From contig JAICWP010000001.1 of assembly GCA_025934735.1 (NCBI GenBank), positions 62,001 to 126,000 on the forward strand: DNA of 64,000 nucleotides, read 5' to 3'. Below, piece after piece: positions 43,927 to 59,602 of the stretch (within the stretch, counting starts at the first letter, position 1; every line of letters begins with the position of its first letter). The DNA comes from Terriglobales bacterium. Its GTDB lineage: Bacteria > Acidobacteriota > Terriglobia > Terriglobales > Acidobacteriaceae. A program made the translations under genes and the position numbers. The notes under the pieces were generated by a model. That model was not told where the DNA came from. It did not search any database and was given only the letters and a program-made list of their open reading frames with translations.

Positions 43927-44396
43927 GGCGCGCTCCTTACCTTTGTTGCTGGAAGTGCAATTGCCTTTCCATCCCCGGGACACCATAGCCCGGGCTAACT
44001 CCAACCGGCTCACTGGATACCGCCCTTTCCCGGAGCGGAACTGGCCCTTTCCGGGTGAGTGATGAAAGGAGTTGCAACCGGTGTCGCAAAGCAGTGCGTT
44101 CTCTGGCTCCGTTGTCCGGCATGCCGGGCGCGAAAATGGTCGCTGGTCCGTCCTCACAGTTGTGCATTGTTGCCCTCCTGGCGGTGGCGTTTGCCGGCTG
44201 AGCGGTCTGCCTGAAAACGGAGGGCATCCGCACGCGAGCGGCTCTTCTGCCCGCCCTTGACCCGCGTAGCTGCCGGATGATAAGTATCAAAGGCTTCTCC
44301 CAATCGGTTGACAGGTTTACCGGCTTCACGCCTGCGCTTGTCGCGGGAGCGCGTGCTCCAATTTTTCCCAGGAACCTCGTGCATGCGGAGGAATGT

Positions 44397-47300
44397 GTGG
44401 AATTGAAGTGGGCTTCGAAAGCGGGCTCTGTGGTGTGTCGAATTGTGTGGGCGCAATTGCTTTTGCTGGCGGTTGCCGGACTTAGTTTCGGCGGCGGTAC
44501 GAGAGCCATGGCGGCGGCGCGGGTGCTTCCCCAGGCTTCTTCTACTGCACCCTCCGCCAAGAAATCGCAGCGCAGTCAAGTCCTGCTTAACTATGCCCGG
44601 CTTCCGCTGAGTTTCGAGCCCAACCTGGGCCAGAGCAATCCGCAAGTAAAATTCCTGGCGCGCGGCGAAGGCTATGGCCTTTTTTTGACGTCCAACCGCG
44701 CCCTGCTGAATGTTCGCGTGCCCAGTGCCCACCAGCAACAGGCGCGAGTCTTGAGCCTGCAACTTCTGGGCGCCAATCCCGCGGCGCGCGTTTTTCCCGA
44801 AGCTAAAATGGCGGGAGTCAGCAACTATCTGTTGGGCGGCGATCCTGGCCAGTGGCACACCAATGTCCCTCATTACGCCCGCGTTCACTACGTCGAAGTC
44901 TACCCGGGCGTAGACCTGGTGTACTACGGACGGCAGCGGCAATTGGAATACGATTTCGTGCTGGCCCCCGGAGCTGATCCCAACCACATCCGCCTGCAGG
45001 TGCAGGGAGCCCAAGGATTGAGCCTGAACCGCGAAGGCGCGCTGTTCATGGCATTGCCCGGAGGCGCCATCCAGATGCTCCCGCCGGTGGCTTACCAGCA
45101 ACTCGGCAAGAAGAAGCACCTGGTGGCGGCACGTTACCTGCTTGAGAACGGAAACCAGGTGGCCCTGCGCCTGGGCGATTACGATCGCAGCCGGGCCCTG
45201 GTTATTGATCCGCAGGTGAGTTACTCCACTTATTTAGGCGGCACCGGGAGCGAGACCGCGCCCGCCGTGGCCGTGGATGCGGCCTTCAATGCTTACGTCG
45301 CCGGCACCACCGCTTCCAGTAATTTCCCCACCACCGCAGGTGCATTGCAAACCAGCCTGAAAGGCACCACCACCAACGTATTTGTTACCAAGTTCAACTC
45401 GGCGGGCACGGGAGTACTGTTCTCCACCTATTTGGGGAGCACGGGAACCGATAGCGCCGCCGGTATCGCCGTGGATTCTGCTTTCAACCCCTATGTGGCC
45501 GGAACCACCAACGCCACCGACTTCCCCATCACCACCGCGAAAGCTGTTCCGGATACGCCAACGACCGCCGGAACCAACCATGTTTTTGTGACCGAACTGA
45601 ATCCGAGCGGCACTGGGCTGATTTATTCCACGTATCTCGCCGGTAACGGCGTGGACACCGCCAAGGGGGTGGCCGTGGGTCCGCAGGCCGGGACCGTGTT
45701 TGCCACCGGCACGACCACCTCTACCAATTTTGCTGGCGTGACCAAGCCCGCCGGACGCGGCACCAGCCAGTTCTTCGTCACCAAGCTCAACACCGGCAAG
45801 CTGGGCCTCGCTAGCCTGGTGTACTCCACCTACGTTGGCGGCACCACACCCAGTGCTGCGCTCACGGATGGCGGGGGGATCGCCGTAGATGCCGCCGGCA
45901 ACGCTTATATCACCGGCGGCACCAACTACAGCGACATGCCGAGGGTGAATGCTTTCCAGGCGGGATTGAATGGCACAGAAAACGCCTTCGTTGCCAAGCT
46001 TGACGCCAACGGTCTGTTCTCCGCCAAGACGTTCTTGACCTACCTGGGTGGAAACGGCGCCGATATTGGCAATGGCATAGCCGTTGACGCTGGCGGGAAT
46101 GCCTATGTCACCGGTTCAACCACTTCCAGCACTTTCCCCGTGTTGGCGGCCACCGGAAGCAGTATTTATCAAGGCACGTTCAGCGGCACCAGCGACGCTT
46201 TCCTGACGAAAGTAGCTTCCGCGGGTACTTCTCTGATTTGGTCTACTTTAATTGGCGGAAGCGGGATAACCAGCGGCCAGGCTGTAGCCGTGGACGGCAG
46301 CCAGAACGCGTTTGTCACCGGCTCTACCGATGGGGGTCTGAACGTGATCAACGCGACGAACCTCCAGGGCACGTATGGCGGCGGCGCGACCGATGCCTTC
46401 ATAGGAAAGTTCGACATCAGCGGCGGCGCTCAATTTGTGACCTACCGTGGCGGAACTGGCGATGATCATGGCACCGGCATCGCCTTGGACAGCAGCGGCA
46501 ATCCCTACGTCGCCGGCGATACCACCTCGACCGGCTTGGCGACATTGGGAGCTTTCCAATCCGCTCTCAATGGCACTGCGAGCGATGCTTTTGTGACCCA
46601 TTACATCGGCATCAGTACTCTGACCATGGCGGCCGCAGTCAACCCTAATCCCATTGGCATCGGCAACGCCGCCGTGTTTACGTTCACTATTACGAACACG
46701 GGACCGGATGCGGCAACGGCGGTCGTGTTCACCGATACGCTGCCCGGCAACGGCACCTTCCAGAGTGCCGCCCCCAGCCAGGGGGCGTGCTCGCCGCCCG
46801 CGGGCTCTACCTTCTCCTGTAGCCTGGGACAACTGCCCAATGGCGCAACCGCGACCGTCACCGTGCACATCACGGCCACTACCGCCGGCCCGCTGAGCGA
46901 CAGCGCTACCGTGGCCAGCAGTTCGCCCACCGGCGGCTCCTCCGCCGGCGTCAGCACCACGGTGAGCGACTACACCGTCTCTCTGAGTCCCGCCACCTCT
47001 ACGGTCACGGCCGGACAGGCCGCTACCTACACCGTGACCGTCTCGCCGGTGCCGGCCAACGCAGGATTCCCCAATGGAGTTTCGCTGAAGTGCGTCGGGT
47101 CCACCGTGCCCACCGCTACCCTGTGCGCTTTTTCCACCAACCCAGTGATCCCGAATGGCACGCCCGTGACCTCGTCCTTGACGATTTCCACCACGGCCCC
47201 GATTCCGGGCACCACTGCGGCCCTGTTTTCACGGGAGTTGCGGCGTATCTACGCGGTCATGCTGCCGCTGGGCGGGATTGCTTTTCTCGGCTTCGGACTG

Positions 47301-47510
47301 GGCGGCGATGACCGCCGGCGCAAGCGCGTGGCTGGGCTCTTCCTCCTGCTGCTGGTACTGGGTGTGACCGCGCTGCAGCCGGCGTGCAGCAGTTCCAGCA
47401 ACAAGGCTACGCCGCCTCCGTTCACTCCCACAGGAACCTACAAAATTACCGTGCAGGCCATTTCCGGCCCGGTCGTTCGTTCCACCACGCTGAAACTGGT
47501 GGTGCAATAA
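44397..47510 (+). CDS. exported SBBP-repeat / DUF11 surface protein
   Basis: 1037 residues from GTG 44397 (GGAGGA just upstream). Signal-like segment WAQLLLLAVAGLSFGGG, then a conserved N-terminal block (LPLSFEPNLGQSNPQVKFLA ... VYPGVDLVYYGRQRQLEYDF) found before SBBP repeats, about seven SBBP beta-propeller repeats (YSTYLGGTGSETAPAVAVDA, YVTGSTTSSTFPV, ATGTTTSTNF), a DUF11 domain (NPIGIGNAAVFTFTITNTGP), an Ig-like domain, and a C-terminal membrane segment MLPLGGIAFLGFGLGGDDRR plus LFLLLLVLGVTALQPACSSS. Probably cell-surface or outer-membrane associated; adhesion or binding role inferred. Confidence 0.85.
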   Translation: MELKWASKAGSVVCRIVWAQLLLLAVAGLSFGGGTRAMAAARVLPQASSTAPSAKKSQRSQVLLNYARLPLSFEPNLGQSNPQVKFLARGEGYGLFLTSNRALLNVRVPSAHQQQARVLSLQLLGANPAARVFPEAKMAGVSNYLLGGDPGQWHTNVPHYARVHYVEVYPGVDLVYYGRQRQLEYDFVLAPGADPNHIRLQVQGAQGLSLNREGALFMALPGGAIQMLPPVAYQQLGKKKHLVAARYLLENGNQVALRLGDYDRSRALVIDPQVSYSTYLGGTGSETAPAVAVDAAFNAYVAGTTASSNFPTTAGALQTSLKGTTTNVFVTKFNSAGTGVLFSTYLGSTGTDSAAGIAVDSAFNPYVAGTTNATDFPITTAKAVPDTPTTAGTNHVFVTELNPSGTGLIYSTYLAGNGVDTAKGVAVGPQAGTVFATGTTTSTNFAGVTKPAGRGTSQFFVTKLNTGKLGLASLVYSTYVGGTTPSAALTDGGGIAVDAAGNAYITGGTNYSDMPRVNAFQAGLNGTENAFVAKLDANGLFSAKTFLTYLGGNGADIGNGIAVDAGGNAYVTGSTTSSTFPVLAATGSSIYQGTFSGTSDAFLTKVASAGTSLIWSTLIGGSGITSGQAVAVDGSQNAFVTGSTDGGLNVINATNLQGTYGGGATDAFIGKFDISGGAQFVTYRGGTGDDHGTGIALDSSGNPYVAGDTTSTGLATLGAFQSALNGTASDAFVTHYIGISTLTMAAAVNPNPIGIGNAAVFTFTITNTGPDAATAVVFTDTLPGNGTFQSAAPSQGACSPPAGSTFSCSLGQLPNGATATVTVHITATTAGPLSDSATVASSSPTGGSSAGVSTTVSDYTVSLSPATSTVTAGQAATYTVTVSPVPANAGFPNGVSLKCVGSTVPTATLCAFSTNPVIPNGTPVTSSLTISTTAPIPGTTAALFSRELRRIYAVMLPLGGIAFLGFGLGGDDRRRKRVAGLFLLLLVLGVTALQPACSSSSNKATPPPFTPTGTYKITVQAISGPVVRSTTLKLVVQ

Positions 47511-47514
47511 GAAA

Positions 47515-47590
47515 GGTTTCAAAGTTTCAGGGTTTCAAAGTTTCTGCGATATTTGCGGAAACCTTGAACCTTCTGAACCTTTGAAACCTA
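47515..47590. repeat. GAAACC/GGTTTC inverted word repeat
   Basis: Left: AAGGTTTCAAAGTTTCAGGG repeated; right: its inverse (GGAAACCTTGAACC ... CTTTGAAACC). Imperfect hairpin between the convergent SBBP and oxidoreductase genes. The same words occur at 3612-3650, 10150-10205 and 32845-32900. Confidence 0.6.
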
Positions 47591-47652
47591 TGGACGACTG
47601 GATGTAACACCCGCGCTGCTCCCGCTCCGCTCGTCTGAAACGCTACTTCGAG

Positions 47653-49017
47653 CTATGCGCTCTTGATCTTCTTTGCCGCCGCGTCCCATACCGCCACCGT
47701 CTTGTTGAAATACGAATAATTGGACAGGTGACAGCCGAGAGCGGCGTTGTTGCCGAATATTTCATTTTCCACCACCGGCTTCCGCGTGCGCACTGCGTTG
47801 AAGAAGTTAGCCTGGTGGTCGGCAACATCGTCGTAACCCGGCGGCACCTTGAAGCTTTCCGCTTCCTCGTCCACGTTGAAGTGCAGCGGCTCTGGCTGCG
47901 GGTGCTCCTGCTGCCACTGCTTCAAGTACTGCTCGCGCAGTCGCTTGGGCCAGCCGTAAATCGAGTACGACTCCGGCTGCGGCCGCGTGTCCTGCGGCCG
48001 GTAGGTGAGGGTGGAATCCTTGATAATCATCGTGCCCTTGGTTCCGTAGAACCCGATGAACTCCCCGCCTTCATTGTTCAGGTTGCAGCGTATGGCGGTT
48101 CGGAAGTTGGGGTAGTCGTAATAAGTCTCGATCAGGTCAGGGAAGTCGCGGCCGTCTTTCCAGCGGAACAGCCCGCCGGCGGATTGCGCCCGCTGTGCCA
48201 CCATGTTGGTGCCGGTAATGAAATGAATGCCGGAAATCAGGTGCACAAACAGGTCGCCGGCCAGGCCCTCGCCGTAGTCCTCGAAGCAGCGCCAGCGGAA
48301 GAAGCGCACCGGATCGAAAGGACGCTTGGGCGCGTCTTGCAGAAAAGCGTTCCAGTCAATCGTCTGCGGGCTGGCGTCGGGAGGGATGGGATACACCCAC
48401 GCGCCGCTGGCGGTGTTGCGGTCCCAGTAAGCCTCGATGGCGCACACCTGACCCAGCTTGCCGGAATCGTAAATTTCCTTGGCCTTGGCATACAGAATCG
48501 AGCTCACGCGCTGGCTGCCCACCTGCAGCATGCGCTTGTTCTTATGCACCGCGTCCATAATCGCGAAGCCGTCTTCCACCGTGTGCGACATGGGCTTCTC
48601 GCAATACACGTCCTTACCCGCCGCGCAGGCGTCCTCCACTACCTTGCGATGGTGGTGATCGGTAACCGCCACAATCACGGCGTCCACGTCCTTGCGGTCC
48701 AGGATCTGCCGGTAATCGCGGGTGGCGGGGACTTGCTTCTGCACCGCTTCCTGGGCGGCCTGGTGGCGCGAGTCGTACAGATCGCAGACGCCCACGCACT
48801 CAATGCCGGGAACCGACAACGACGATTGCAGGAGTTCGCAGCCGCGCACGCCCGTGCCGATGGAGGCAAAGCGCACCATGTCGCTGGGCGGCACCGGGCC
48901 TGGCGATGCCCACAACGCTCTCGGTTCCAGAATGGTGACTTTGGCGGCCAGGCCGGCTGCAGCCGCGCCCGCCCCCAGCAGCATGAAATCGCGCCGTGAT
49001 AAGGAGCTCTTATTCAT
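47653..49017 (-). CDS. TAT-exported Gfo/Idh/MocA family oxidoreductase
   Basis: 454 residues from ATG 49017; the longer frame to 49110 lacks support. The twin-arginine signal SLSRRDFMLLGAGAAAAGLA precedes a Rossmann domain (VRFASIGTGVRGCELLQSS, VGVCDLYDSRHQAAQ) with the family motif CEKPMSHTVEDG, then the C-terminal alpha/beta domain (WDRNTASGAWVYP, GLAGDLFVHLISGIHFITGT). Typical periplasmic glucose-fructose-oxidoreductase-like protein with NAD(P). Sugar substrate unknown. Confidence 0.92.
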   Translation of the reverse strand: MNKSSLSRRDFMLLGAGAAAAGLAAKVTILEPRALWASPGPVPPSDMVRFASIGTGVRGCELLQSSLSVPGIECVGVCDLYDSRHQAAQEAVQKQVPATRDYRQILDRKDVDAVIVAVTDHHHRKVVEDACAAGKDVYCEKPMSHTVEDGFAIMDAVHKNKRMLQVGSQRVSSILYAKAKEIYDSGKLGQVCAIEAYWDRNTASGAWVYPIPPDASPQTIDWNAFLQDAPKRPFDPVRFFRWRCFEDYGEGLAGDLFVHLISGIHFITGTNMVAQRAQSAGGLFRWKDGRDFPDLIETYYDYPNFRTAIRCNLNNEGGEFIGFYGTKGTMIIKDSTLTYRPQDTRPQPESYSIYGWPKRLREQYLKQWQQEHPQPEPLHFNVDEEAESFKVPPGYDDVADHQANFFNAVRTRKPVVENEIFGNNAALGCHLSNYSYFNKTVAVWDAAAKKIKSA

Positions 49018-49422
49018 GAATCGTGTGCCTCTCGAGGATTCGGCTCTGCTTGCCGGCCGGTTTGAGTGTAGCTGGCGATTGTAGCGCAGGAGGGCAGCTT
49101 GTGTTGTCATGGGGAGCTTCGCTCCGTTGCACGCTGGGGTTCTGCCCGCCGAAAACCATGGTGTTACGGGGCTCTGCCCGTCGAAGACTGTGTGGGGGCG
49201 GGGCTCTGCCCCGCCCTGCAGCAGAAGATGCCCACCAATGTCTTGTACAACGCTCTCAAACCTCCGTTGCCCCTAGTTTCTGTCTCATTCCGGGGGATGC
49301 GAAGGGAGCGCGGCGAGGCTGCGCGAACGAGAACCAATTTTTTTGGTCAGGAGAACCGGCTCGGATCGTCGTTTATACGGCGCAAGGGATGCGCGCCCGA
49401 AGTCCTGCCACTGTCAGGAAAA
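49018..49422. other. intergenic region with GGGGCTCTGCCCC hairpins
   Basis: No supported gene. Holds a hairpin GGGCGGGGC-TCT-GCCCCGCCC at 49196-49216 and a weaker relative near 49166-49182 (ACGGGGCTCTGCCCGT), plus short open frames on both strands without family or ribosome sites. Confidence 0.5.
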
Positions 49423-49827
49423 CTACCCCTGCCGCCAGCCTACGACTTCCTTCAATCCATCGCTCCGGGTCTGTTCGAAAAGCCGGACCAGGTGCCGGCA
49501 ATGCTCAAATTCATGGATGTCGGCCCAGACCTCGGCCTGCCAGCTCTTGTCATGGCTGGCGGCTTCGCCGCAGGTGGCGCAGCGGGTATAGAGTCGGACC
49601 GGGGACGGCTTCTCCACCTCGCCCGCATCCGGCAGTTCAATAAACACTACGCGCACGTCCTGGATTTCGTCGTTGTCCGCCACTTCATGCTCGTAGCGCA
49701 ATAGGTAGGGGAACCCCAGCTTGCGGGCTTCCAGTTCCGCTTCCAGACGGCTGTTGAACGGGCCATATTCCGCCCGGTTGTGTTCGATGGTGTCGCAGGC
49801 CATCCAGAACGTTTCTTTGTAGGTCAT
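49423..49827 (-). CDS. hypothetical protein
   Basis: 134 residues from ATG 49827. N-terminal helix TYKETFWMACDTIEHNRAEY and NSRLEAELEARKLGF, a beta part VADNDEIQDVRVVFIELPD, a CxxC pair (CATCGEAASHDKSW) and an acidic/His helix HEFEHCRHLVRLFEQTR. The CxxC with nearby His could bind a metal. No family recognised, but the composition is clearly coding. Confidence 0.65.
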   Translation of the reverse strand: MTYKETFWMACDTIEHNRAEYGPFNSRLEAELEARKLGFPYLLRYEHEVADNDEIQDVRVVFIELPDAGEVEKPSPVRLYTRCATCGEAASHDKSWQAEVWADIHEFEHCRHLVRLFEQTRSDGLKEVVGWRQG

Positions 49828-50138
49828 CAGGGCCTCAGAACCTTGTGTTTCACCGGATCTTCCCGGCAGAGCGTTGAAGAAGGCTCCAAAATAGCAATCG
49901 CTTTGCCGCAAGCCGAAACTCCTAAGTTGTTGAATGTGAATGGCGCTCTGCCTCGCCTTGGCACGGCGGATTGCAAGCTTTTGCGCAGTTTTGCCGAGTC
50001 CAAGCCAGCCCTTGAGCGGACCAACCTTGTCTCAGTTGGAAAACGGCCCCGTCTGGTGACTCCGGTAACTTGTGGCCGCCACCAGGTAACGTCATAACAT
50101 GGTCGAAACCAAATAGTTGTAATCAAGACAGGAGAGGC
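49828..50138. other. intergenic region, no gene seen
   Basis: Between two divergent genes. I see no supported ORF, tRNA or clear hairpin; it must contain promoters for both, but no confident -35/-10 pair stands out. Confidence 0.4.
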
Positions 50139-50831
50139 ATGGGCCGGCGCAAGCAGGAACGCACCGCGGCCAAACTCGCACTCAAGCTCTGGGGCACGGA
50201 TAGCTCCGGACAGCCCTTTATTGAGGCGGTGACCACGCGCAATATCAGCGCCGAGGGCGTGCTGCTGGAAGGCGTGCGCCACAAGCTCAAGCCCGGCGAC
50301 GCCGTGGGCTTAACCTATAAGCAGAAGAAAGCTCGATTTCGGGTCAGCTGGGTAGGCGAGGCGGGTGGCGAGGAAGAGGGTCTTCTGGGCTTGGCAAACG
50401 CCGAAACGGGCCAGTCGCTATGGGACATGCCCCTGCCCCCGCACGCGCCCGATCCCTATATGCCCGCCAAAGTTGCCGACCGCCGCCGCTTTCCCCGCTT
50501 TGAGTGCAAGGCCAGCGTGGAGGTGCGGCTGGAATCCGGTTCGCCGGTGCGCGGCAACCTGGTGGATGTCAGCCTGGGCGGTTGCTACATCGAAATGATG
50601 ATTCCCCTGCCGGTCAGCACGCAACTGAACCTGGCGATCTGGCTGGACCGTGGCAAACTGGAAACACCCGGTCTGGTGACCAGCAGCCATGCCGGTTTCG
50701 GCATAGGCGTGAAGTTCATCGGCATGGGCAAGCCTGAGCGCCAGGCGTTGGAGCAGTATCTGGCCGAGCAGGCGGTCCTGAGCCGCCCTGCCGGCAGCCG
50801 CGCGAGGGCCGCCACCACTCACCGCCGCTAG
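50139..50831 (+). CDS. tandem PilZ domain protein
   Basis: 230 residues from ATG 50139 with GGAGAG at four to five bases. First PilZ-like domain RRKQERTAAKLALKLWGT...TTRNISAEGVLLEGV (residues 3-105); second RRRFPRFECKASVEVRLESG...LVDVSLGGCYIEMMIPLPVS (residues 115-210). The second keeps the RxxxR and DxSxxGG motifs and should bind c-di-GMP; the first has RNISAEG. C-terminal basic tail. Confidence 0.85.
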   Translation: MGRRKQERTAAKLALKLWGTDSSGQPFIEAVTTRNISAEGVLLEGVRHKLKPGDAVGLTYKQKKARFRVSWVGEAGGEEEGLLGLANAETGQSLWDMPLPPHAPDPYMPAKVADRRRFPRFECKASVEVRLESGSPVRGNLVDVSLGGCYIEMMIPLPVSTQLNLAIWLDRGKLETPGLVTSSHAGFGIGVKFIGMGKPERQALEQYLAEQAVLSRPAGSRARAATTHRR

Positions 50832-50914
50832 ACGCCCCATCAGCGACACACATTCCCCGCGTAACCACTCCCAAATTACTAAGCCAGAAATTGGTCTGGG
50901 CGACCCACGCTCCG

Positions 50915-51358
50915 TCAGTTCGCCGTGTCCCACATTTCCTGCACCACATTCCAGGGCACAGTTGGGCGGCCACCACGGCTCGCCAGGCAGCGCTCCAGGG
51001 TGGCGGAAAGGTACAGGTGGCGGAAAGGTTTGGTGAGGAACTCCTGGGCTCCGCTGACGAAGGCCTCCAGCGCCTTGCGGGGATCGGGAGCCCCGGAGCA
51101 CATGATCACCTTGAGGGTAGGGCGGATCTGCAGCAGCTGGCGCAGGGTTTCCAGCCCGTCCATTCCCGGCATATTGACGTCGAGCAGGACCACATCCGGA
51201 ACCAGGCCGGAAGTCAACAACTGGACCGCTTCCAGGCCTCCATTGGCGGTTTGCACCCGATACGAGTCCAGTTCGAGCAGGGTGCGCACGTATTGCAGCA
51301 TGGCGGCATCATCGTCCACTACCAGCACGATGATCGGTGTGCTCTCGGGGGAGGGCAT
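50915..51358 (-). CDS. receiver-only response regulator
   Basis: 147 residues: a single REC domain with acidic pocket IVLVVDDDAAM, phosphoryl aspartate in VVLLDVNMPGMDG and lysine in FLTKPF, and no output domain. The stretch AMLQYVRTLLELDSYRVQTA closely matches the REC of the NtrC-type regulator at 57225 (GMLRYIRTLLEVDSYKVETA), so the two are paralogues. It follows two stand-alone LuxR HTH proteins on the same strand. Confidence 0.92.
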   Translation of the reverse strand: MPSPESTPIIVLVVDDDAAMLQYVRTLLELDSYRVQTANGGLEAVQLLTSGLVPDVVLLDVNMPGMDGLETLRQLLQIRPTLKVIMCSGAPDPRKALEAFVSGAQEFLTKPFRHLYLSATLERCLASRGGRPTVPWNVVQEMWDTAN

Positions 51359-51722
51359 AAATTAAAAAGCTGCTGCACAACAAGGGGTGCACGCTGGCTC
51401 GGTGTACGCCTGCGGACCGGCCCCGGTCAATGGCCATTCGCGGGTGACAAACGTTGGCCTCTCAGCGAGATGCACAGCATCCACAGCGCCCTGCCAGGAA
51501 ATGGTGCAGGCCGAATCCCGTCCCAGTACGGGCCGGCGCCACAGCCGCGTGTGGCAATACGCAACATCGCTTGCGCCTACGTAGATGCCGGCACGGACCC
51601 GATTCTGCCTGTGGAAAACCGGGCTAACCAGCTTTGCTCTCAACAAACCTACGCTTGCAGAGGGGGAGCGCCGCAGGCTTTCGCCAAGTCGAGTGCCTGG
51701 CCCACAGCGCCCCAGGATCAAG
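51359..51722. other. intergenic region, no supported gene
   Basis: The only long frames are antisense-like, without ribosome sites or domain signals. No hairpin of note seen. Confidence 0.35.
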
Positions 51723-52007
51723 TCAGCGGCCAGCCACCGCTTGCTTCGCCTCCAGCGGCCGCGGACGCGTTTCCGCCCCTTCCGCCAGAATCAGCCCGCG
51801 CCAGCCTTCGCCGCCGTGGTTGGCGATATAGAGCGCCAGTTCCAGGCGGCTCCACACACCCAGCTTGTCGAAAATTACGCGCAGGTAATTTTTCACCACC
51901 TGCTCCGTGGTGCCGATGGTTTGCCCGATTTCGCGGTTGGTCATGCCCTCCCATACCAGGGCGGCAACTTCGATTTCCCTTGGAGTTAAACGATTCCGTG
52001 GTTGCAT
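51723..52007 (-). CDS. stand-alone LuxR-type HTH protein 1
   Basis: 94 residues from ATG 52007 (GGGAG upstream). The GerE/LuxR HTH is at residues 7-62: RLTPREIEVAALVWEGMTNR, then EIGQTIGTTEQVVKNYLRVI. No receiver, no sensor. The 30-residue C-terminal tail is variable. Its start overlaps the end of the upstream HTH gene by 22 bases, so the two are coupled. Confidence 0.87.
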   Translation of the reverse strand: MQPRNRLTPREIEVAALVWEGMTNREIGQTIGTTEQVVKNYLRVIFDKLGVWSRLELALYIANHGGEGWRGLILAEGAETRPRPLEAKQAVAGR

Positions 52008-52225
52008 TGCACTTGCTCCCGCCACACCAGTGCTGTGGCCAGTTTGACCCGCTTGCGCCCGCCGTCAATCCCGGCGCGCTGAAACAGCGAGCGCAGGTGC
52101 TGCTTGACGGTACGCGGGCTAATGTTGAGTTCGCTGGCAATTTCCTTGTTGCTGCAGCCTTCCAGCAGCAGCCGCAGAATTTGCCCATCCCGTTGCGTGA
52201 CCTTGAATTCCTTTAAGTCCGTCAT
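51986..52225 (-). CDS. stand-alone LuxR-type HTH protein 2
   Basis: 79 residues from ATG 52225 (GTGAGGC at five bases). HTH: VTQRDGQILRLLLEGCSNKE, then IASELNISPRTVKQHLRSLF. Compared with protein 1 the tail is short. Together with protein 1 and the receiver-only gene downstream it looks like a split response-regulator set. Confidence 0.87.
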   Translation of the reverse strand: MTDLKEFKVTQRDGQILRLLLEGCSNKEIASELNISPRTVKQHLRSLFQRAGIDGGRKRVKLATALVWREQVQCNHGIV

Positions 52226-52568
52226 GATTGCCTCACAAAGCATCTTCGCTTTGCTTTCGCTACTGCCGTACCGTGGAGCAAGTCATTATCCAAAAGGAAC
52301 CTCCGGCTCGCGCTGCGCTCTACTCCATTGTGGTTGCAAGTACTTGCGGCGCTTACATAAAAAGATTGTGGATCACACACCCGGTCCGTAGATCCGGCGC
52401 ATTTCCCGAAACGGGCAGTCTTCTCCTGGAATCAATGCCCTGTTCCGGGCCACGCTTCCCGTTTTTGCCCGAGAACATCCGTGATCATGGGGCTGCTGCC
52501 GTAAATCGCCCCTTTTGGCCGGAATCCCCTCCAAATGGGGTAGGCTGGAACGCCGAGGAGGGTTAACC
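52226..52568. other. intergenic region between divergent HTH and YncE-like genes
   Basis: No gene. Contains scattered GC-rich inverted words and an AT-rich patch at about 52355-52375 (CATAAAAAGATTGTG). The ribosome site of the YncE-like gene (GAGGAGG) lies at its right end. Confidence 0.4.
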
Positions 52569-53564
52569 ATGCGCAGCTTCAGAATATTGCCTTTAGCGAT
52601 GCTGTTGCTGGCGGCTCAACTGGGCGCCCAGACCCTGAAGCCGGTGGCCACCATCAATCTGCCGGGGCCGGCGGGCAAGCGCTTCGATTACCTGACCATT
52701 GATTACCAGGACCACTACCTGCTTTCCGCCCACCTGGGCGCCGGCATTCTTTATGTGATTGACCTCAGGACCAACCGACTGCTCAAGGCCATTGCGAATG
52801 TGCCCGGGGTGGAAGGCGTGGAGTATGTGCCCGAGTTGCACAAGGTGTACACCTCTGACTGGCTCGAGAACAAAATCGGGGTGATTGACCTGCGCCAGTT
52901 CAAGGTCATCAAGAAGATTCCCACTCGCGACAAGCCCGACGGCAGCGCCTACGCCCCGCCCTTTCACAAGCTGTATGTTTCCGATGAGCGCGGGAAAACC
53001 GAGGCGGTCATTGATGTGCGCACCGACGCGGCGGTCAAGAACCTGGCCTTCGACAGCGAAACCGGCATGCCGCAATATGATCCGGTGGCCCGCAAGGTGT
53101 ACCTGAATTTGCAGGACCAGAACATTTTCGCGGTCGTTGATCCCGAGAGCGACCAGGTGGTGGCCCGCTACCCCGTGGGCAGGTGCCGGGGAAATCACGG
53201 CATGGCGCTGGACGTGGAGCATCGCCGTGCCTTTCTCTCCTGCGAAGAGAACGACCTGCTGACGGTGTTCGACCTGGAAAAGCACGTCCCCATTGCCTAC
53301 CTCGCCCTGGCCGGCGGCGGCGATGTGGTGAAGTACGATCCCGGCCTGCGCCGCATTTATGAAGCCTGCTACAGCGGCGCCATCTCCGTGTTCCAGGAAG
53401 AGGATGCCGACCACTTCCGCAAGCTGGAAGATTTCCCCGTGCAGAAGAAAGTGCACAGCCTGGCGGTGGACACGGAAACGCACCGGGTTTACGCGCCCGA
53501 GCAGGAGGAGAACGGCAAGCCGGTTGCCAAGATGGTGGTGTATGAAGCGGTGGGTAGGCGCTAG
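52569..53564 (+). CDS. exported YncE-like beta-propeller protein
   Basis: 331 residues from ATG 52569 with GAGGAGG at eight bases. Signal peptide MRSFRILPLAMLLLAAQLGA. Several NHL/YVTN-type blades: ILYVIDLRTNRLLKAIANVP, VYTSDWLENKIGVIDLRQFK, KTEAVIDVRTDAAVKNLAFD, NIFAVVDPESDQVVARYPVG, HRVYAPEQ. Periplasmic seven-bladed propeller of unknown ligand. Monocistronic. Confidence 0.87.
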   Translation: MRSFRILPLAMLLLAAQLGAQTLKPVATINLPGPAGKRFDYLTIDYQDHYLLSAHLGAGILYVIDLRTNRLLKAIANVPGVEGVEYVPELHKVYTSDWLENKIGVIDLRQFKVIKKIPTRDKPDGSAYAPPFHKLYVSDERGKTEAVIDVRTDAAVKNLAFDSETGMPQYDPVARKVYLNLQDQNIFAVVDPESDQVVARYPVGRCRGNHGMALDVEHRRAFLSCEENDLLTVFDLEKHVPIAYLALAGGGDVVKYDPGLRRIYEACYSGAISVFQEEDADHFRKLEDFPVQKKVHSLAVDTETHRVYAPEQEENGKPVAKMVVYEAVGRR

Positions 53565-53706
53565 CTGACAATTGTCCGGTGGCTTGTACTCCTGCCCCGA
53601 CCGCCTGGGCCAGGAGCGGCAGACCCATATTCTGAATGGCGTTGCCGAGATTCCCGCCTAACGTGAGGTCGTGCGGAAGGAATAGGCGTGAATCTTTGGA
53701 ATTCGC

Positions 53707-53741
53707 AGCAGGCTCCGAGGGGACGAGCCAAAGAGCCTGCT
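53707..53741. repeat. hairpin direct repeat, copy 1 (upstream of pilin)
   Basis: AGCAGGCTC ... GAGCCTGCT, nine-base arms around a loop beginning CGAGGGGACGAGCC. An almost identical copy in the same orientation is at 54216-54254, so the two bracket the Flp-type pilin gene. Confidence 0.8.
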
Positions 53742-53837
53742 CCGAAGATGCAAGCGTGGGAAAGTACCAGTAGAAGTTACCAATCCTCGTGCCTCGCCCA
53801 GAAGCGGAGTGCCACGGATTTTAGCAACGTCCGAAAC

Positions 53838-54002
53838 TTACCCAATCGAGCTGGCCGTCTGGGAAAAGACGGTATTGGCGTTGCTGCCGATCAGCCGGAT
53901 CGTGCCCACCACGATGACCAGAATAACGGCAAGCATCACCGCATATTCCGCGATGTCCTGCCCCTGATCATCGGACCACAGATTCTGCAGAAGTGCTTTC
54001 AT
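53838..54002 (-). CDS. Flp/Fap-type (class IVb) pilin
   Basis: 54 residues from ATG 54002 (GGGAG seven bases upstream). N-terminal leader with DDQGQDIAEYAVMLAVILVI: the E-Y pair following the cleavage zone and the hydrophobic helix are the Flp pilin signature. Short C-terminal stretch IGSNANTVFSQTASSIG. Subunit of a Tad-type pilus. No tad genes are in the window, so assembly genes are elsewhere. Confidence 0.85.
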   Translation of the reverse strand: MKALLQNLWSDDQGQDIAEYAVMLAVILVIVVGTIRLIGSNANTVFSQTASSIG

Positions 54003-54215
54003 GTTGTTACTCCCTTTCTGAGCTGATGCTACAGCTCACAGCCTAACTGGCTTGGAGTGCTTAGGGAATGGCACTAGAGAGCCATACCAGGCAGTATGTT
54101 GCGGGCCTTTGTTCACGTGAGACTTAAATTCAGAGAGGGGGGAGGGGCCCAGCCGAACCAGAGCCGAAATCAGAACAACGGTTGCTCCTGTTGCTGCCTG
54201 GGATCCCAGAATTCC

Positions 54216-54254
54216 GGAGCAGGCCCCGAGGGGACGAGCCAGAGGGCCTGCTCC
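54216..54254. repeat. hairpin direct repeat, copy 2 (beyond pilin)
   Basis: GGAGCAGGCCC (54216-54226) with GGGCCTGCTCC (54244-54254), 11-base arms, loop CGAGGGGACGAGCCAGA. Same orientation as copy 1 at 53707. Confidence 0.85.
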
Positions 54255-54292
54255 ACAGAAAAAACCGAAGGGATTGCTCGCGACCACAATTT

Positions 54293-55378
54293 TCAGTCGG
54301 CTGTGGCCGCGTTGCCGTTGATTCCATGGCCGTTCACGCGCGGCTGCTCGAACTTGGCGGCGCGGTTGGAGGGCAGGCCAGTATCGCGGATCTTGTAGAG
54401 CAGCGCCCGGTAACTGATGCTCAGGGCGCGCGCAGACTGCTTGCGGTTCCAGTGGTTGGCCTGCAGCACCTTGAGGATCACTTTACGTTCCAGTTCGCGC
54501 ACTGCCTGGCGAGTGAGCTTCTTGAGTGAGATCGGCCCATCCAGGGAAATTTCCGGGTTGAAGAAATCGCGCTCCTGGGCGACTAGGTCGCTGCTGATGG
54601 CTTCCTCTGTGCCCAGAATCACATATCGTTTGATCAGGTTTTCCAGTTCGCGGATGTTGCCGGGCCAGTGATACTTCTGCAGCATGCCCATCAGTTCATC
54701 GGAAACCTCGCGGGCGCGGCAGTTGTACTTGCGGTTGTAATGCTCCAGGAAATAGGCCACCAGTTCGGGAACATCGGTGGCGCGGTCGCGCAGTGGCGGC
54801 ATGTGCAGGTTCACCACGTTGATACGATAGAACAAGTCCTGGCGGAAGGTGCCGCTGGCGATTTCCTGCTCCAGTTGGCGGTTGGTGGCGCAGACCACCC
54901 GCACTTCCACTTTCTTGTCTTCCTGGGCGCCGATACGGCAGAACTGGCCATCCTGCAGCAGTTGCAGCAGTTTGGACTGCAGGGCGGAGTCAAGCTCGGA
55001 AATTTCATCCAGAAATAGGGTGCCGCGGTGCGCCATTTCCACCCGGCCCGGCTTCGAACCGTAGGCCCCGGTGAAAGCGCCCTTTTCATAGCCGAACAGC
55101 TCGCTCTCCAGCAGGGTGCCGGGGATGGCGGGGCAGTTGACCTTAACGAACGGCCCGGTGCGCCATGGCGAGAGCCCATGGATCATACGGGCGATAATGT
55201 CTTTCCCAGTGCCGCTTTCGCCCTGGATCAGGACAGGCACATTGGCGCCGGCCAGCTTCTGCAGGCGCTCGCGCAGTGCGCGCATGGTCTCGGTGCGGCC
55301 AAAAACCACCTGCTCCGGGGGAATTTCACCCAACGACTGGGCCAACGAGCTGACGGATGTTGCAGCCATTCTGGTCAC
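54293..55378 (-). CDS. sigma-54 interaction-domain transcriptional activator without receiver
   Basis: 361 residues. A short N-terminal segment (1-25) precedes the AAA+ domain: Walker A GESGTGKD, GAFTGA loop, ELDSALQSKLLQLLQDG, Walker B GTLFLDEIS. A Fis-type HTH (LQANHWNRKQSARALSISYR) is at about 310-340. No sensor domain, so it is either controlled by a partner or constitutively ready. The Fis HTH is almost the same as that of the NtrC-type gene at 57225. Monocistronic. Confidence 0.93.
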   Translation of the reverse strand: MTRMAATSVSSLAQSLGEIPPEQVVFGRTETMRALRERLQKLAGANVPVLIQGESGTGKDIIARMIHGLSPWRTGPFVKVNCPAIPGTLLESELFGYEKGAFTGAYGSKPGRVEMAHRGTLFLDEISELDSALQSKLLQLLQDGQFCRIGAQEDKKVEVRVVCATNRQLEQEIASGTFRQDLFYRINVVNLHMPPLRDRATDVPELVAYFLEHYNRKYNCRAREVSDELMGMLQKYHWPGNIRELENLIKRYVILGTEEAISSDLVAQERDFFNPEISLDGPISLKKLTRQAVRELERKVILKVLQANHWNRKQSARALSISYRALLYKIRDTGLPSNRAAKFEQPRVNGHGINGNAATAD

Positions 55379-55580
55379 TCCGCTGGAGCAAAAGACGCTC
55401 TCGGCAAGCTGGCTAAGTGCATCCCGAGCACCAAAGTACCTGCGGCTTGTCTCAAGGCCCCAATTTACATATTAAGGTTCATAATTTCAGCAACTTGGGA
55501 GATGTTTTGCGCCGCGAACCATGACCTTTGCCGGAGCCCGTAACCTACTCCACAGGGGGGAGTTGAATGAGAAAAGCTTT

Positions 55581-55943
55581 TCACAGCGAAGAAGTAACTT
55601 TCCTTCCCGCGGAGCGGAGCAGGGGACGGGAGAACTTCACGCCCACCAACTGGTGGCGGTTGGAGGAACGAATGTGGACTACACGCGCCTGCAGGCGGCG
55701 CACGGAGCGGGGTATCTGGGCGGAGTCGGAGAGGGGGGAACTGGGTATTTCCAGGGAAACCCCAGCGGAGAGCGGCAGAGCACGGGATACGGCCAGCAGA
55801 ACGCCGCCGGCGCTCAGGTTCAGAGCGGTGGCAAATTCGAGAAATTCCTTGCCCCTATCATCTCGGGCCCGCACAAACACCGGAATCGCCAGGGGCAATC
55901 TTTCCCAATTTCTTCGGTTTTTCACAACAGGTTTGCGGGTCAC
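55581..55943 (-). CDS. PilZ domain protein
   Basis: 120 residues. RRNWERLPLAIPVFVRARD (RxxxR) and FATALNLSAGGVLLAVSRAL (NxSxGG), strand RVVHIRSSNRHQLVGVKF. A single c-di-GMP-binding domain, close to the signalling genes at 54-59 kb. Start at ATG 55943. Confidence 0.82.
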   Translation of the reverse strand: MTRKPVVKNRRNWERLPLAIPVFVRARDDRGKEFLEFATALNLSAGGVLLAVSRALPLSAGVSLEIPSSPLSDSAQIPRSVRRLQARVVHIRSSNRHQLVGVKFSRPLLRSAGRKVTSSL

Positions 55944-56319
55944 GGGTTCGTTGTTTTGGCAAACAAACAGTTCTCAGTCGCACCTAAGCTGCCAAAGCCA
56001 ACCTCTCCATGTGGTTAGACGCAGCCGCACGCGGGAGGGCTCACGGCGACTTGGGATTATCGGGCAAATTGGCTTCCCGAGCGATGCTCCAGTCGAGGCG
56101 ATGTGGGCTGGGCAGGGCGGGGCGGGAACTACGTCCCAAGCTCCAGTTTTGAGGGCGGTGGCAAGCTTTTGCTCATTTATGACCAAAGATATGCATTTGG
56201 CGGTTGACAGGTTTGGCACTCTGTCTTAGCATTTGTCTCCTAGGGTTCAGAAAAACAAGCTCTTAGGTTCCTCCCCCATAGATTGACGCCACCAACCGTT
56301 TGCAGCCTGGAGATGAAGT
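55944..56319. other. promoter region upstream of the histidine kinase gene
   Basis: No gene seen. Includes the sigma-70-type promoter at 56204-56232, then an 87-base leader to the kinase GTG. Confidence 0.45.
56204..56232 (+). promoter_or_regulatory. sigma-70-type promoter for the kinase-regulator operon
   Basis: Perfect -35 TTGACA (56204-56209), exactly 17 bases, then TAGCAT (56227-56232), a fair -10. Leader of about 80 bases to the GTG at 56320, whose GGAG site is at seven bases. Confidence 0.6.
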
Positions 56320-57228
56320 GTGTCTACCGTGAAGGGGGAGTTAGTGGGAGCTAAGAGTCAGGGGCGAGCCTTGGCGGAAGAGGTGCACGCAGGCGGCAAC
56401 AGCCATCAGGAGCTGCTGCAGGCTTACATGCAGCTGCAGGAACGCTATCACCGCTGCACGGATGCGCTGGCGGCGGCGGCGCACGATCTGAAAACCCCGC
56501 TGGCTATTCTTTCCGGCTACATCGAGCTGCTGCAAAACGAAAAGGTGGGGCCGCTAAGCGAGCGGCAGCGCGGCATCCTGCAAGACATGCAGGCCAGCAG
56601 TGCGCGCCTGGAGCACTTTATCCAGGATTTTCTCACCTTCAGCGTGCTGGAAACGGGCGAGCTGAAAATGAAATATGAGGTGGGCAGTATGAATGCCTGC
56701 CTGTCGGAAATCTGCAATTTCTGGTCATCCCGCTTCCAGCAGAAGGGCATAGCCCTGTACTTTCTGGCCAACGAGAAGCTGCAGCCCTTCGTTTTTGATT
56801 TTGCCAAGGTGCAGCGGGTGATTTCCAACCTGCTGGACAACGCGGCCAAGTTCACCCCGGCAGGGGGAACGGTATGGCTACATGCTGAGCCGCACATGTG
56901 GGAGCGGCGCTCCAACTACCTGCCGGCGCCGGCGCACGAACGGCGAAAACAAAAGAGCGAGGTTGCCAACTCCGTGAAGGTCAGCGTCTCCGATACCGGC
57001 CCCGGGATCGCCCCGGAATTTCATCAGGAAATTTTTGACGACTTCTTCCGATTGGCGCAGGCCGGAGTTTCCGGCGAAGGGGTGGGGCTGGGACTGGCCA
57101 TTGCCCGGCGCCTGGTGCAGGCTTTTGGCGGGAAGATCTGGGTGGAGAGCGACCAGGGTTCGGGCAGCAAGTTTTGCTTCCTGCTTCCGCTGCTGCCCCC
57201 GGGTGTGGCCGTGGGAGGGACACGATGA
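56320..57228 (+). CDS. soluble sensor histidine kinase
   Basis: 302 residues from GTG 56320. No transmembrane segment. Coiled-coil N-terminal region (residues 20-50), HisKA dimerisation helix with H-box AAHDLKTPLAIL, N box VISNLLDNAAKF, G1 VSDTGPGIAPE and G2 GEGVGLGLAIARRLVQAFGG. The ATPase domain has an insertion of about 25 residues after TVWLHAEPHMW. Cytoplasmic signal input is unknown. Overlaps the regulator gene by four bases (ATGA), so they are a cognate pair. Confidence 0.93.
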   Translation: MSTVKGELVGAKSQGRALAEEVHAGGNSHQELLQAYMQLQERYHRCTDALAAAAHDLKTPLAILSGYIELLQNEKVGPLSERQRGILQDMQASSARLEHFIQDFLTFSVLETGELKMKYEVGSMNACLSEICNFWSSRFQQKGIALYFLANEKLQPFVFDFAKVQRVISNLLDNAAKFTPAGGTVWLHAEPHMWERRSNYLPAPAHERRKQKSEVANSVKVSVSDTGPGIAPEFHQEIFDDFFRLAQAGVSGEGVGLGLAIARRLVQAFGGKIWVESDQGSGSKFCFLLPLLPPGVAVGGTR

Positions 57229-58634
57229 GCACTTCGCCGAGAATCCTGCTGGTGGACGATGAGCCCGGCATGCTTCGCTACATCCGTACCCTGCTGGAGG
57301 TGGACTCCTACAAGGTGGAGACGGCCAACAGCGGCAACGACGCGCTGGAGCGGGTGCAGCGCGGGCTGAGTCCCGACCTGGTGCTGCTCGACCTGTTGAT
57401 GCCGGGGCTGGACGGCCTGGAGACGCTGGAGCAATTGCGGCATATGCAGCCCAGCATGAAGGTGGTGATGCTCTCCTGCGTGAGCGACACGCGCAAGGTG
57501 GTGCAGGCCATCCGGCTGGGAGCGCAGGATTATCTCACCAAGCCCTTCCAGAAGGCGGAACTGGACGCGGTGATCAAGCAGTGCCTGCGGGCGGAAACGC
57601 ATTCCGCGGGCGAGGTGGAAGAGCTGTGCGACGACGTGTTCTTCGTGGCCGCCAGCCCGGCCATGAAAAAGATTCGCGCCCAGGCGGCGCTGGTCGCGGC
57701 GGTGGATATCCCGGTGCTGCTGCTGGGCGAAAGCGGCACGGGCAAAGAGGTGCTGGCGCGCTTGATTCACAAGCTTTCGCCGCGCGCCCACCGCACCTTT
57801 CTGAAGGTGAATTGCGCCGCGGTCCCTGCCGATCTGCTGGAAAGCGAGCTCTTCGGCTACGAGGCGGGCGCATTTACCGGAGCCACCCATCCCAAGCCGG
57901 GCAAGTTCGAGCTGTGCAACAAAGGCACCATCCTGATGGACGAGATTGGGGAAATGTCGCCGGCGCTGCAGGCCAAACTGCTGCACGTGCTGCAGGACCA
58001 GCAGTTTTCGCGGCTGGGCGGGCGGTCGGTAATCAAGGTGGACGTGCGCATCCTGGCGGCCACCAACGTGAATATTCCCGAGGCAATTGCCACCAAGCGT
58101 TTGCGCGAGGACCTTTACTACCGGCTGAACGCGTTTACCCTGCAGCTGCCGCCGCTGCGTGAACGGAAAGAGGAAGTTCCGCTGCTGCTGAAGCACTTCA
58201 TGTCGCGCATGGCGGAACACTATGCGCGGCCTCCAATCACGCTCTCGTCGCGATTGCTGGAGCGCTGCCTGGAATACCCCTGGCCTGGCAACCTGCGCGA
58301 GCTGAGCAATTTCGTGAAGCGCTACCTGATCCTGGGCGATGAAGACGTGGCCATGAATGAACTGCAGGCGCAGGGGGATGGCAGCGGGCCGGCCGGCGGC
58401 GCAGCAGGCAGGGAGGGTGCGGTGAAGGTGTCGGGCGGGTTGAAGTCGCTGGCGCGCAGCGCCAAGGACGAAGCCGAGGCTGAAGCCATCACCCAGGCGC
58501 TGGAACAGACCAACTGGAACCGCAAACAGGCCGCCGCCCTGCTGAAGATCAGCTATAAGGCGCTGCTCTACAAGATCCGCCAGTACGGCATCGCCGAACC
58601 CATGCGGCACCACAAGCTGAGCGCCGGGGCGTAA
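57225..58634 (+). CDS. NtrC-family sigma-54-dependent response regulator
   Basis: 469 residues from the ATG overlapping the kinase stop. REC domain (LLVDDEPGML, LVLLDLLMPGLDG, YLTKPF), sigma-54 AAA+ domain with GESGTGKEVLA, GAFTGATHPKPGKFE, GTILMDEIGEMS and DVRILAATN, and a Fis-type HTH (LEQTNWNRKQAAALLKISYK). Target promoters are not identifiable here. The Fis helix is nearly identical to that of the receiverless activator at 54293. Confidence 0.95.
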   Translation: MSTSPRILLVDDEPGMLRYIRTLLEVDSYKVETANSGNDALERVQRGLSPDLVLLDLLMPGLDGLETLEQLRHMQPSMKVVMLSCVSDTRKVVQAIRLGAQDYLTKPFQKAELDAVIKQCLRAETHSAGEVEELCDDVFFVAASPAMKKIRAQAALVAAVDIPVLLLGESGTGKEVLARLIHKLSPRAHRTFLKVNCAAVPADLLESELFGYEAGAFTGATHPKPGKFELCNKGTILMDEIGEMSPALQAKLLHVLQDQQFSRLGGRSVIKVDVRILAATNVNIPEAIATKRLREDLYYRLNAFTLQLPPLRERKEEVPLLLKHFMSRMAEHYARPPITLSSRLLERCLEYPWPGNLRELSNFVKRYLILGDEDVAMNELQAQGDGSGPAGGAAGREGAVKVSGGLKSLARSAKDEAEAEAITQALEQTNWNRKQAAALLKISYKALLYKIRQYGIAEPMRHHKLSAGA

Positions 58635-58662
58635 GCCGTTCTGCTGCTCAGTTATTTTGTGG

Positions 58663-58683
58663 GCACGGGGCTCTGCCCCGTGC
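58663..58683. repeat. GGGGCTCTGCCCC hairpin
   Basis: GCACGGGGC-TCT-GCCCCGTGC, perfect nine-base stem, 28 bases past the NtrC-type gene; may serve as its terminator. The core recurs at 49196-49216 and (inverted) at 62163-62187. Confidence 0.75.
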
Positions 58684-58792
58684 AGGCCGGGCGCAGCCTT
58701 GCTCGCCTGTCTTTGCCTCTCAGAATTTCCATGCTGTTCTGCCGCGCTCCCTCGCGGGGTTCGGTCGCGCGCTCCAAGTTTTCAGTGCGCGG

Positions 58793-58822
58793 TTCGGCAC
58801 GCCTGAAGGCGTGCCCTGATAC
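58793..58822. repeat. 30-bp hairpin element, copy B (inverted)
   Basis: Exact reverse complement of the element at 39886-39915, hairpin GGCACGCC-TGAA-GGCGTGCC. Confidence 0.85.
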
Positions 58823-58839
58823 TAACCCGCTATCGAATG

Positions 58840-58934
58840 TACCCCATCGAAGCCTACCTCGTTGAAGCCACCCCATCGAACCAACCCCATCGAGCCCACA
58901 CGATCAAAGCATCCCGAACCGCCCCATCGTTCAG
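58840..58934. repeat. CCCCATCGA word cluster
   Basis: CCCCATCGA occurs four times with degenerate ends between 58840 and 58930, interspersed with CGTTGAAGCC and CGATCAAAGC. Low-order degenerate tandem repeat in the otherwise empty 58635-59021 gap. Confidence 0.55.
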
Positions 58935-59021
58935 TTGTGGTCTGCAGGAGGGCGAAGTCCCGCCTCGGCAGCGCGGCATCCTGCGGCTGCCGTGGGTGTT
59001 GAGGCGAGCCGTGAGCAGAGA

Positions 59022-59498
59022 TCAGGAACGCTGGTCGTAAGCTTCCTGCAGGCGGCAGATGTCAATTTTGTCCATCTGCAGCATGGCCCGCATAACGCGG
59101 TTCGCTTTTGCGCGATCGGGGTCGCCCAGCATTTTGCCGAGGGCGGTAGGGATGATCTGCCAGGAGAGGCCGAACTTGTCGCGCAGCCAGCCGCAGCGGC
59201 TTTTCTCCCCGCCGGCGGAGAGCTTCTCCCAGAGTTCGTCCACTTCGGCCTGAGTCTCACAATTCACGAACAACGAAATGGCGGGAGTGAAGGTGAATTG
59301 CGGGCCGCCGTTGAGGGCCATGAATTCCTGTCCGTTAAGCTCAAAGGCGCCGGACATGACTGTTCCTTTCGGGCTGGGGCCGGCCTCGCCATAGCGGTGA
59401 ATGGTTTTGATTTTTGAGTTCTTGAAAATCGAGACGTAGAAATTCATCGCCTCTTCGGCTTGGTCGTTGAACCAGAGAAAGGGAACGATCTTTTGCAT
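59022..59498 (-). CDS. VOC / PhnB-like (3-demethylubiquinone methyltransferase domain) protein
   Basis: 158 residues from ATG 59498 (GAGGAGC upstream). Blocks IVPFLWFNDQAEEAMNFYVS, IHRYGEAGPSPKGTVMSGAF, ELNGQEFMALNGGP and FVNCETQAEVDELWEKLS, followed by GWLRDKFGLSWQIIP. Typical PhnB fold; no enzymatic activity is established for this family, despite the older methyltransferase name. Confidence 0.92.
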   Translation of the reverse strand: MQKIVPFLWFNDQAEEAMNFYVSIFKNSKIKTIHRYGEAGPSPKGTVMSGAFELNGQEFMALNGGPQFTFTPAISLFVNCETQAEVDELWEKLSAGGEKSRCGWLRDKFGLSWQIIPTALGKMLGDPDRAKANRVMRAMLQMDKIDICRLQEAYDQRS

Positions 59499-59602
59499 GG
59501 GGGCTCCTCGCAGCAAAGATCTTAAAACGCAGAGGACGCGGAGATCACTGGGGATGAATTGATCTGGGGTCTACCCCCGCGATCAAAGAATGCGCCTCCT
59601 GA

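Follow-up and report, generated by a model that had tools for sequence, protein, structure and literature searches.

The closest described relatives of the genes considered here each resemble only a part of them. GerE of Bacillus and other HTH-only LuxR-type proteins consist, like the proteins HTH-A and HTH-B of the present locus (A and B in the following), of a single GerE-type HTH without a receiver, but here there are two different HTH proteins, the genes of which overlap and follow a sigma-54-like promoter. The NarL/FixJ family has the same type of HTH but differs in that A and B are without a receiver and that the receiver encoded next to them (R) is placed in another lineage. Single-domain response regulators acting by contact or phosphorelay are represented by Osp (PMC9430884), MrrA (PMC5964349) and EpsW (PMC4671073), and R is like them a receiver only and has kept the catalytic residues, but differs from them in its apparent NtrC-receiver descent, in its HTH-only pair as neighbour and in a promoter of the type found ahead of an RNA candidate. 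VemR is a response regulator linked to the sigma-54 factor RpoN2 (PMC6637908), whereas here the predicted link is to the promoter of A-B, and BldM-WhiI (PMC4125116) is a heterodimer of atypical response regulators and as such resembles the heterodimer proposed for A and B, although the latter are HTH-only and have overlapping genes. Sigma-54 has furthermore been discussed as governing the exterior of the cell (PMC3162934). The known systems thus each cover part of the design while the combination itself is new, and we found no description of the gene set of A-B and R among the matching papers listed from the open-licence PMC literature. The locus suggests that a two-component module may be built from separate parts, namely a sigma-54-controlled HTH-only pair and a free NtrC-derived receiver, and the predictions of kinase sharing that follow below are directly testable in a phylum with little-studied regulation.

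The stretch of DNA analysed, hereafter the window, comprises 64,000 nt of Terriglobales bacterium GCA_025934735.1 (contig JAICWP010000001.1, positions 62,001-126,000), and the following genes, given in window coordinates, are of concern.

51986-52225, minus strand: HTH-A, an HTH-only LuxR/GerE-type protein of 79 aa from ATG 52225 (ORF; Pfam GerE, 2e-14)
51723-52007, minus strand: HTH-B, an HTH-only LuxR/GerE-type protein of 94 aa from ATG 52007 (ORF; Pfam GerE, 3.2e-12)
50915-51358, minus strand: R, a receiver-only protein of the NtrC-receiver lineage, 147 aa (Pfam Response_reg, 5.6e-28)
54293-55378, minus strand: a receiver-less sigma-54 activator, divergent from the kinase and NtrC genes with a PilZ gene between
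56320-57228, plus strand: a histidine kinase (HK) in which no sensor domain is recognised, a candidate donor of phosphoryl groups to R
57225-58634, plus strand: an NtrC-type response regulator, the receiver of which is the nearest paralogue of R in the same genome

The start of A at ATG 52225 was chosen by alignment of 18 sequences (alternative ATG 52243), and ATG 52007 is used for B (alternative GTG 52025; 17 sequences in the B alignment). The original prediction of two overlapping HTH-only LuxR-type proteins and a receiver-only protein on one strand is confirmed by the open reading frames and by Pfam, all three genes being on the minus strand. Pfam recognises the GerE/LuxR-type HTH (PF00196) in both A and B, with weaker general HTH models matching A as well, and finds no receiver domain in either of these chains, taken at 85-100 aa. 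In the 147 aa of R it finds no second domain beside Response_reg, and neither the AAA+ sigma-54 interaction domain nor the Fis-type HTH of the NtrC family. A and B overlap by 22 nt, whereas B and R are separated by a gap of 364 nt, which was absent from the prediction and contains a promoter of R's own. A, B and R do not form a single continuous block; their arrangement is kept more than chance would have it, as the start of B lies 19 nt ahead of the stop codon of A in 12 of 18 A-B pairs from different genera, and in 12 of the 14 genomes of the family sample that have R it follows A-B on the same strand.

A-B is a conserved coupled pair of the Terriglobales (Acidobacteriota). Of the 300 family genomes sampled, 66 have an A of the first type (A1; at least 132.7 bits, counted by hand) and 81 have any A-type match, the remainder being of a second type (A2) or partial; the named matches of A that were kept, 80 of 91, carry without exception the names of Acidobacteriota groups (Acidobacteriaceae, Terriglobia, Terriglobales, Sulfotelmatobacter and similar ones), and in a search of plasmids with A all matches stayed below 60% identity. 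In a sample of 100 relatives the orthologues of A and B are adjacent in the mapped genera, with the pair of G021 split over two contigs, and both are kept as stand-alone HTH proteins of about 70-110 aa. A GGAG-like site ahead of B, inside the coding end of A, is visible in many of the 18 pairs. Among solved structures GerE (1FSE) is the second-best match of A and is also matched by B, lower in its list. Many genomes have a second, paralogous pair A2-B2, often nearby, while the genome of the window shows the first pair only. Long open A frames across B had raised the idea of frameshifting in A2-B2, which was rejected because most B2 genes have a GGAGG-like site and an ATG and because in G005, G012 and G044 the A2 frame ends early. 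Upstream of A2-B2, TGGCATTGTGGATGCT-like elements occur in many loci (L095, L100-L105, L107, L111 and others), and CTGTGGAAAT...TCACA boxes, by eye like one box of the R promoter, occur in several.

Other genes recur around the pair. An RND efflux operon is found on the opposite strand upstream of A-B in several genera (L094, L097, L099, L105, L107), with families of the OEP, HlyD and AcrB type annotated in L099, and in some genera it is accompanied by an OmpR-type regulator and a kinase. At 49423-49911 on the minus strand the window encodes a 162-aa protein without a Pfam match, and members of its family were found in 16 of the 21 stretches mapped around A-B.

Two elements upstream of A-B bear on how the pair may be controlled.

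52277-52292, minus strand: sigma-54-like -24/-12 element TGGATAATGACTTGCT, upstream of A-B, a type of element seen in 22 of 22 genus representatives and followed with controls at 82 loci
52403-52416, minus strand: enhancer-like palindrome GCCCGTTTCGGGAA, which precedes the -24 element by about 125 nt

The consensus upstream of A, TTTGGCGAA-N4-TTGCTT-like, has the GG-N10-GC geometry of sigma-54 promoters, and all the genus representatives have an element scoring at least 6 of 12, which is a lenient cut. A score of at least 8 is reached at 74 of the 82 loci as opposed to about 19% of 200-nt stretches taken there at random and about 13% of shuffles, but since the loci are related these scores are not independent draws, and more weight attaches to the shared sequence. 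The element of the window is among the weaker versions, and another GG-N10-GC site nearer A ties with it in score; among the 82 loci the top-scoring site is not the aligned element in G000, the genome of the window (by this tie), nor in G116 and L256. A CCAATTTGG-like palindrome is found 107-135 nt upstream of the -24 element. It was discovered in 77 promoters, and a matrix built from 59 sites at 56 other loci was applied to 21 held-out genus representatives of the 22 (the upstream sequence of G008 being too short), about 20 of 80 named loci having been removed by hand from the promoter and enhancer sets as duplicates of genomes already included. The palindrome exceeds the 95th percentile of the controls in 17 of these 21 (below it are G010, G048, G027 and G047), and in the same promoters at other offsets the matrix does so in 1, 2, 2 and 6 of 21, the last of these intervals being a partly overlapping one. 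Taken alone the copy in the window is weak, since four of the 21 fall below the threshold and the matrix matches about 0.5 times per kb at score 9. With a conserved GG-N10-GC element and an upstream palindrome A-B qualifies as a putative sigma-54-dependent operon. As to the activator, a scan with the matrix found no consistent site in the HK/PilZ/AAA/NtrC block of relatives, and there is therefore nothing to tie the NtrC-type regulator at 57225 to the A-B promoter. Between the PilZ and HK genes of the window a GGGA-N-TCCC dyad was considered as a shared enhancer, but was rejected as it is not kept in relatives. The matrix also matches a site in the R promoter of the window, with a score of 13.6, for which no counterpart was seen in the sequence of G010.

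R is preceded by upstream sequences of its own.

51609-51618, minus strand: far upstream element TTTTCCACAG, 110 nt before TGCAC, recognised by eye
51395-51518, minus strand: R promoter unit with TGCAC (51504-51508), CTGTGGA, a -35 box TTGACC (51425-51430) and a -10-like TACACC (51401-51406)

A TGCAC...CTGTGGA-like stretch and a TTGAC precede R in all 13 genomes with enough upstream sequence, the distance from TGCAC to TTGAC being 78-80 nt in 12 of them (G055 deviates), and in most a -10-like GTANACA follows the TTGAC (G010, G013, G041 and G157 deviate). A profile made from these 13 promoters matches only the same 13 among 269 records at an E of 0.1 or better; both this profile and a sequence-only model used further below were trained with the copy of the window included, so that self-matches are there by construction. 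Since the promoter is conserved and absent from the other loci among these records, R is very likely transcribed on its own, and A-B and R are very likely separate transcription units. The original prediction had held that independent transcription or a strong divergence of the receivers would speak against the set; the former is now indicated by the separate conserved promoters, while the latter is not seen. Indeed the predicted closeness of R to the NtrC-type receiver at 57225 holds good, this being the best match of R in its own genome with 48-51% identity (48% over 139 aa) and 131 bits as compared with 80.6 for the next.

In a tree of 84 receivers the 14 rows of R form one clade (100/97), which is nested in a group of 38 rows together with NtrC receivers (98/95), although many forks of the tree are unresolved because of its few columns; R is thereby placed in NtrC-receiver and not NarL descent. 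Residues D16, D60, S88 and K110, which supply the acidic pocket, the phospho-Asp, the Ser/Thr and the Lys of a receiver, are invariant in eight of eight aligned R proteins, and by its domain and these phosphorylation residues R qualifies as a predicted single-domain response regulator. The alpha-5 motif HLYL[ST]A is found in seven of the eight, and such a conserved face suggests a protein partner. In alpha-1, R and the NtrC-type regulator at 57225 have nine of 15 residues in common while other receivers of the genome reach at most six (33 rows in total), four of the other R rows sharing fewer than eight of the 15 with the R of the window, and at seven specificity positions, picked by homology, the 57225 receiver leads by 4 to 3 only. 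Our reading of these comparisons is that R would have kept much of its kinase-facing side while its output side has changed.

Proteins of the R clade are present in 14 of 300 genomes of the family (at least 193.4 bits, the best NtrC receiver scoring 190.6). In the two genomes where R is not seen downstream of A-B, the contig ends just upstream of R (G144) or R is without an adjacent A1-B1 and A2-B2 lies about 3 kb upstream (G110). In a tree of 77 A+B rows R occurs in 11, which are grouped in one part of the tree (7 changes, as low in 1 of 500 shuffles), and this distribution would be compatible with one gain and repeated losses. Identical A-B pairs were merged for this tree, loci without room downstream of B were dropped (L186, L197, L250), and it omits weak matches of A or B (below 85 or 80 bits), and thus the R-bearing G157/L224/L263, as well as loci without A or B (G110, G144). 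R is hence an optional neighbour, and A-B without R is the common state.

The kinase at 56320, the NtrC-type regulator, the PilZ gene and the activator at 54293-55378 form a conserved block (40 loci in about 20 genomes, as far as the loci reach), and with the protein at 54293-55378 the kinase system may have a second activator. HK and NtrC are both present in the eight R-bearing genomes of the 100-relative sample, but most A-B genomes that lack R have them as well. Only two of the eight, the genome of the window and G041, have them within about 6 kb of R, so that their proximity is lineage-specific and the idea of a shared kinase rests on the sequence of R. On that ground it is plausible that R would share a kinase of the 56320 type with the 57225 regulator; established work on two-component specificity would have the alpha-1 surface of R dock on this kinase.

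The reading we favour, which in our judgement is evenly poised between right and wrong, is that A-B is an output pair controlled in its amount via sigma-54, and that R is a free phospho-receiver of the 56320 kinase type acting by contact. The sigma-54 promoter and some enhancer-binding protein would set the amount of A and B, which most likely act together on DNA as a heterodimer, while R most likely takes its phosphoryl group through alpha-1 and would act on a partner as a sink, an inhibitor or an adaptor, by way of its altered alpha-5 face, rather than as a DNA binder. Against this weigh the rarity of HK-NtrC near A-B-R, the absence of a consistent palindrome from the HK block and the weakness of the enhancer copy of the window; moreover the likeness in alpha-1 may be plain common descent, and the fact that R is found almost only beside A-B fits a direct link of R to A or B equally well. 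Such a link is the substance of a possible but clearly less probable account, in which the three proteins make up a split response regulator with the NarL logic working in trans, phosphorylated R binding A, B or their dimer and so switching DNA binding. It draws on the fact that 12 of 14 genomes have R directly after A-B in the same orientation, a thirteenth (G144) being cut by the contig end, and on the conserved alpha-5 face that R has of its own; it is in poor agreement with the NtrC rather than NarL descent of R, with the presence of R beside only 11 of 77 A-B rows, with the separate conserved promoter sequences, and with G110, which keeps R without an adjacent A1-B1, even though an A2-B2 lies about 3 kb away. 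That a single ancestral NarL-type regulator broke up into a receiver and one or two HTH parts and so gave rise to the three genes, a fission suggested at the outset, is highly improbable. Within the family, B-like HTHs are indeed also part of longer open frames (among the matches listed, at 59% identity in a 232-aa frame of G046 and at 56% in a 379-aa frame of G024), and seven such fused, NarL-type proteins yielded a receiver, but these seven form a clade far from R in the 84-row tree while R groups with NtrC receivers, and A-B without R is the common state. No fusion of R with A or B was apparent among the matches listed in relatives nor in 88 loci. Since R would have been copied from a different type of regulator, the locus has the look of a small assembled gene neighbourhood and not of one broken regulator.

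R may also belong to a different kinase or pathway altogether, its place beside A-B being inherited synteny and its alpha-1 likeness common descent, which we consider unlikely, though about on a par with the split response regulator. PilZ2 and a protein of the 145-aa type are likewise kept beside A-B, another kinase/OmpR-type pair adjoins A-B in some genera, and the promoter type of R is common to an RNA candidate and not to HK-NtrC, all of which would suit this explanation. It is however countered by the NtrC receiver being by far the nearest paralogue of R in its genome, and by the occurrence of HK and NtrC in all eight R-bearing genomes of the 100-relative sample, an argument that is tempered by their presence in most A-B genomes without R.

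Tracing the R promoter also yielded a covarying RNA candidate without a match in Rfam, which is reported here because R and the RNA have this promoter type in common. The sequence-only model found two further good copies of the promoter in the genome of the window (33.4 and 24.3 bits), and of 61 genomes searched 20 have copies, counting this one, no A having been found in several of the 20. Outside the R loci, a conserved RNA-like sequence is matched after 23 of 25 promoter places, two of the matches comprising only 39 nt at contig ends; of the other two places, L291 ends too soon and L293 has no such match after its promoter copy. The two copies in the genome of the window are as follows.

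L270, 1175-1495, minus strand: RNA copy 1, on contig C37, with its promoter at C37:46405-46513
L271, 1170-1493, minus strand: RNA copy 2, on contig C8, with its promoter at C8:11768-11877

The candidate is about 330 nt or longer and consists of two similar modules, and by eye boxes like TTTTCCACAG precede many of its copies. In an alignment of ten compact, complete copies 26 of 104 predicted pairs show pair-keeping changes on both sides, as compared with 12.4 (s.d. 2.1) in shuffles, of which 0 of 500 were as high, and at most 7 for slid structures, the structure having itself been predicted from this alignment. The two copies of this genome have no counterpart in Rfam at E values up to 1. A model of the module finds two matches per copy and hits 7 of 200 genomes of the class, the present one included and all of this family, with no convincing match within the window. 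The two-module covarying sequence is thus a candidate RNA, present twice in the genome. Some copies in other family members are longer, and L277 has an apparent inserted hairpin array.

A far TTTTCACA-like box, the TGCAC...CTGTGGA stretch and the 78-80 nt to TTGAC would be the marks of one regulon of R and the two-module RNA, and R, the RNA and the sigma-54-driven A-B could then be tiers of one circuit, an idea that we regard as speculative and quite improbable; its logic would be comparable to that of the Gac/Rsm systems, except that the receiver is free and the HTH proteins are split. Finally, when window positions 44000-60000 were compared with Rfam, the only outcome was a sub-threshold microRNA-like hairpin match on both strands of a 74-bp intergenic stretch at 47515-47588, and this is probably an inverted repeat or a terminator.
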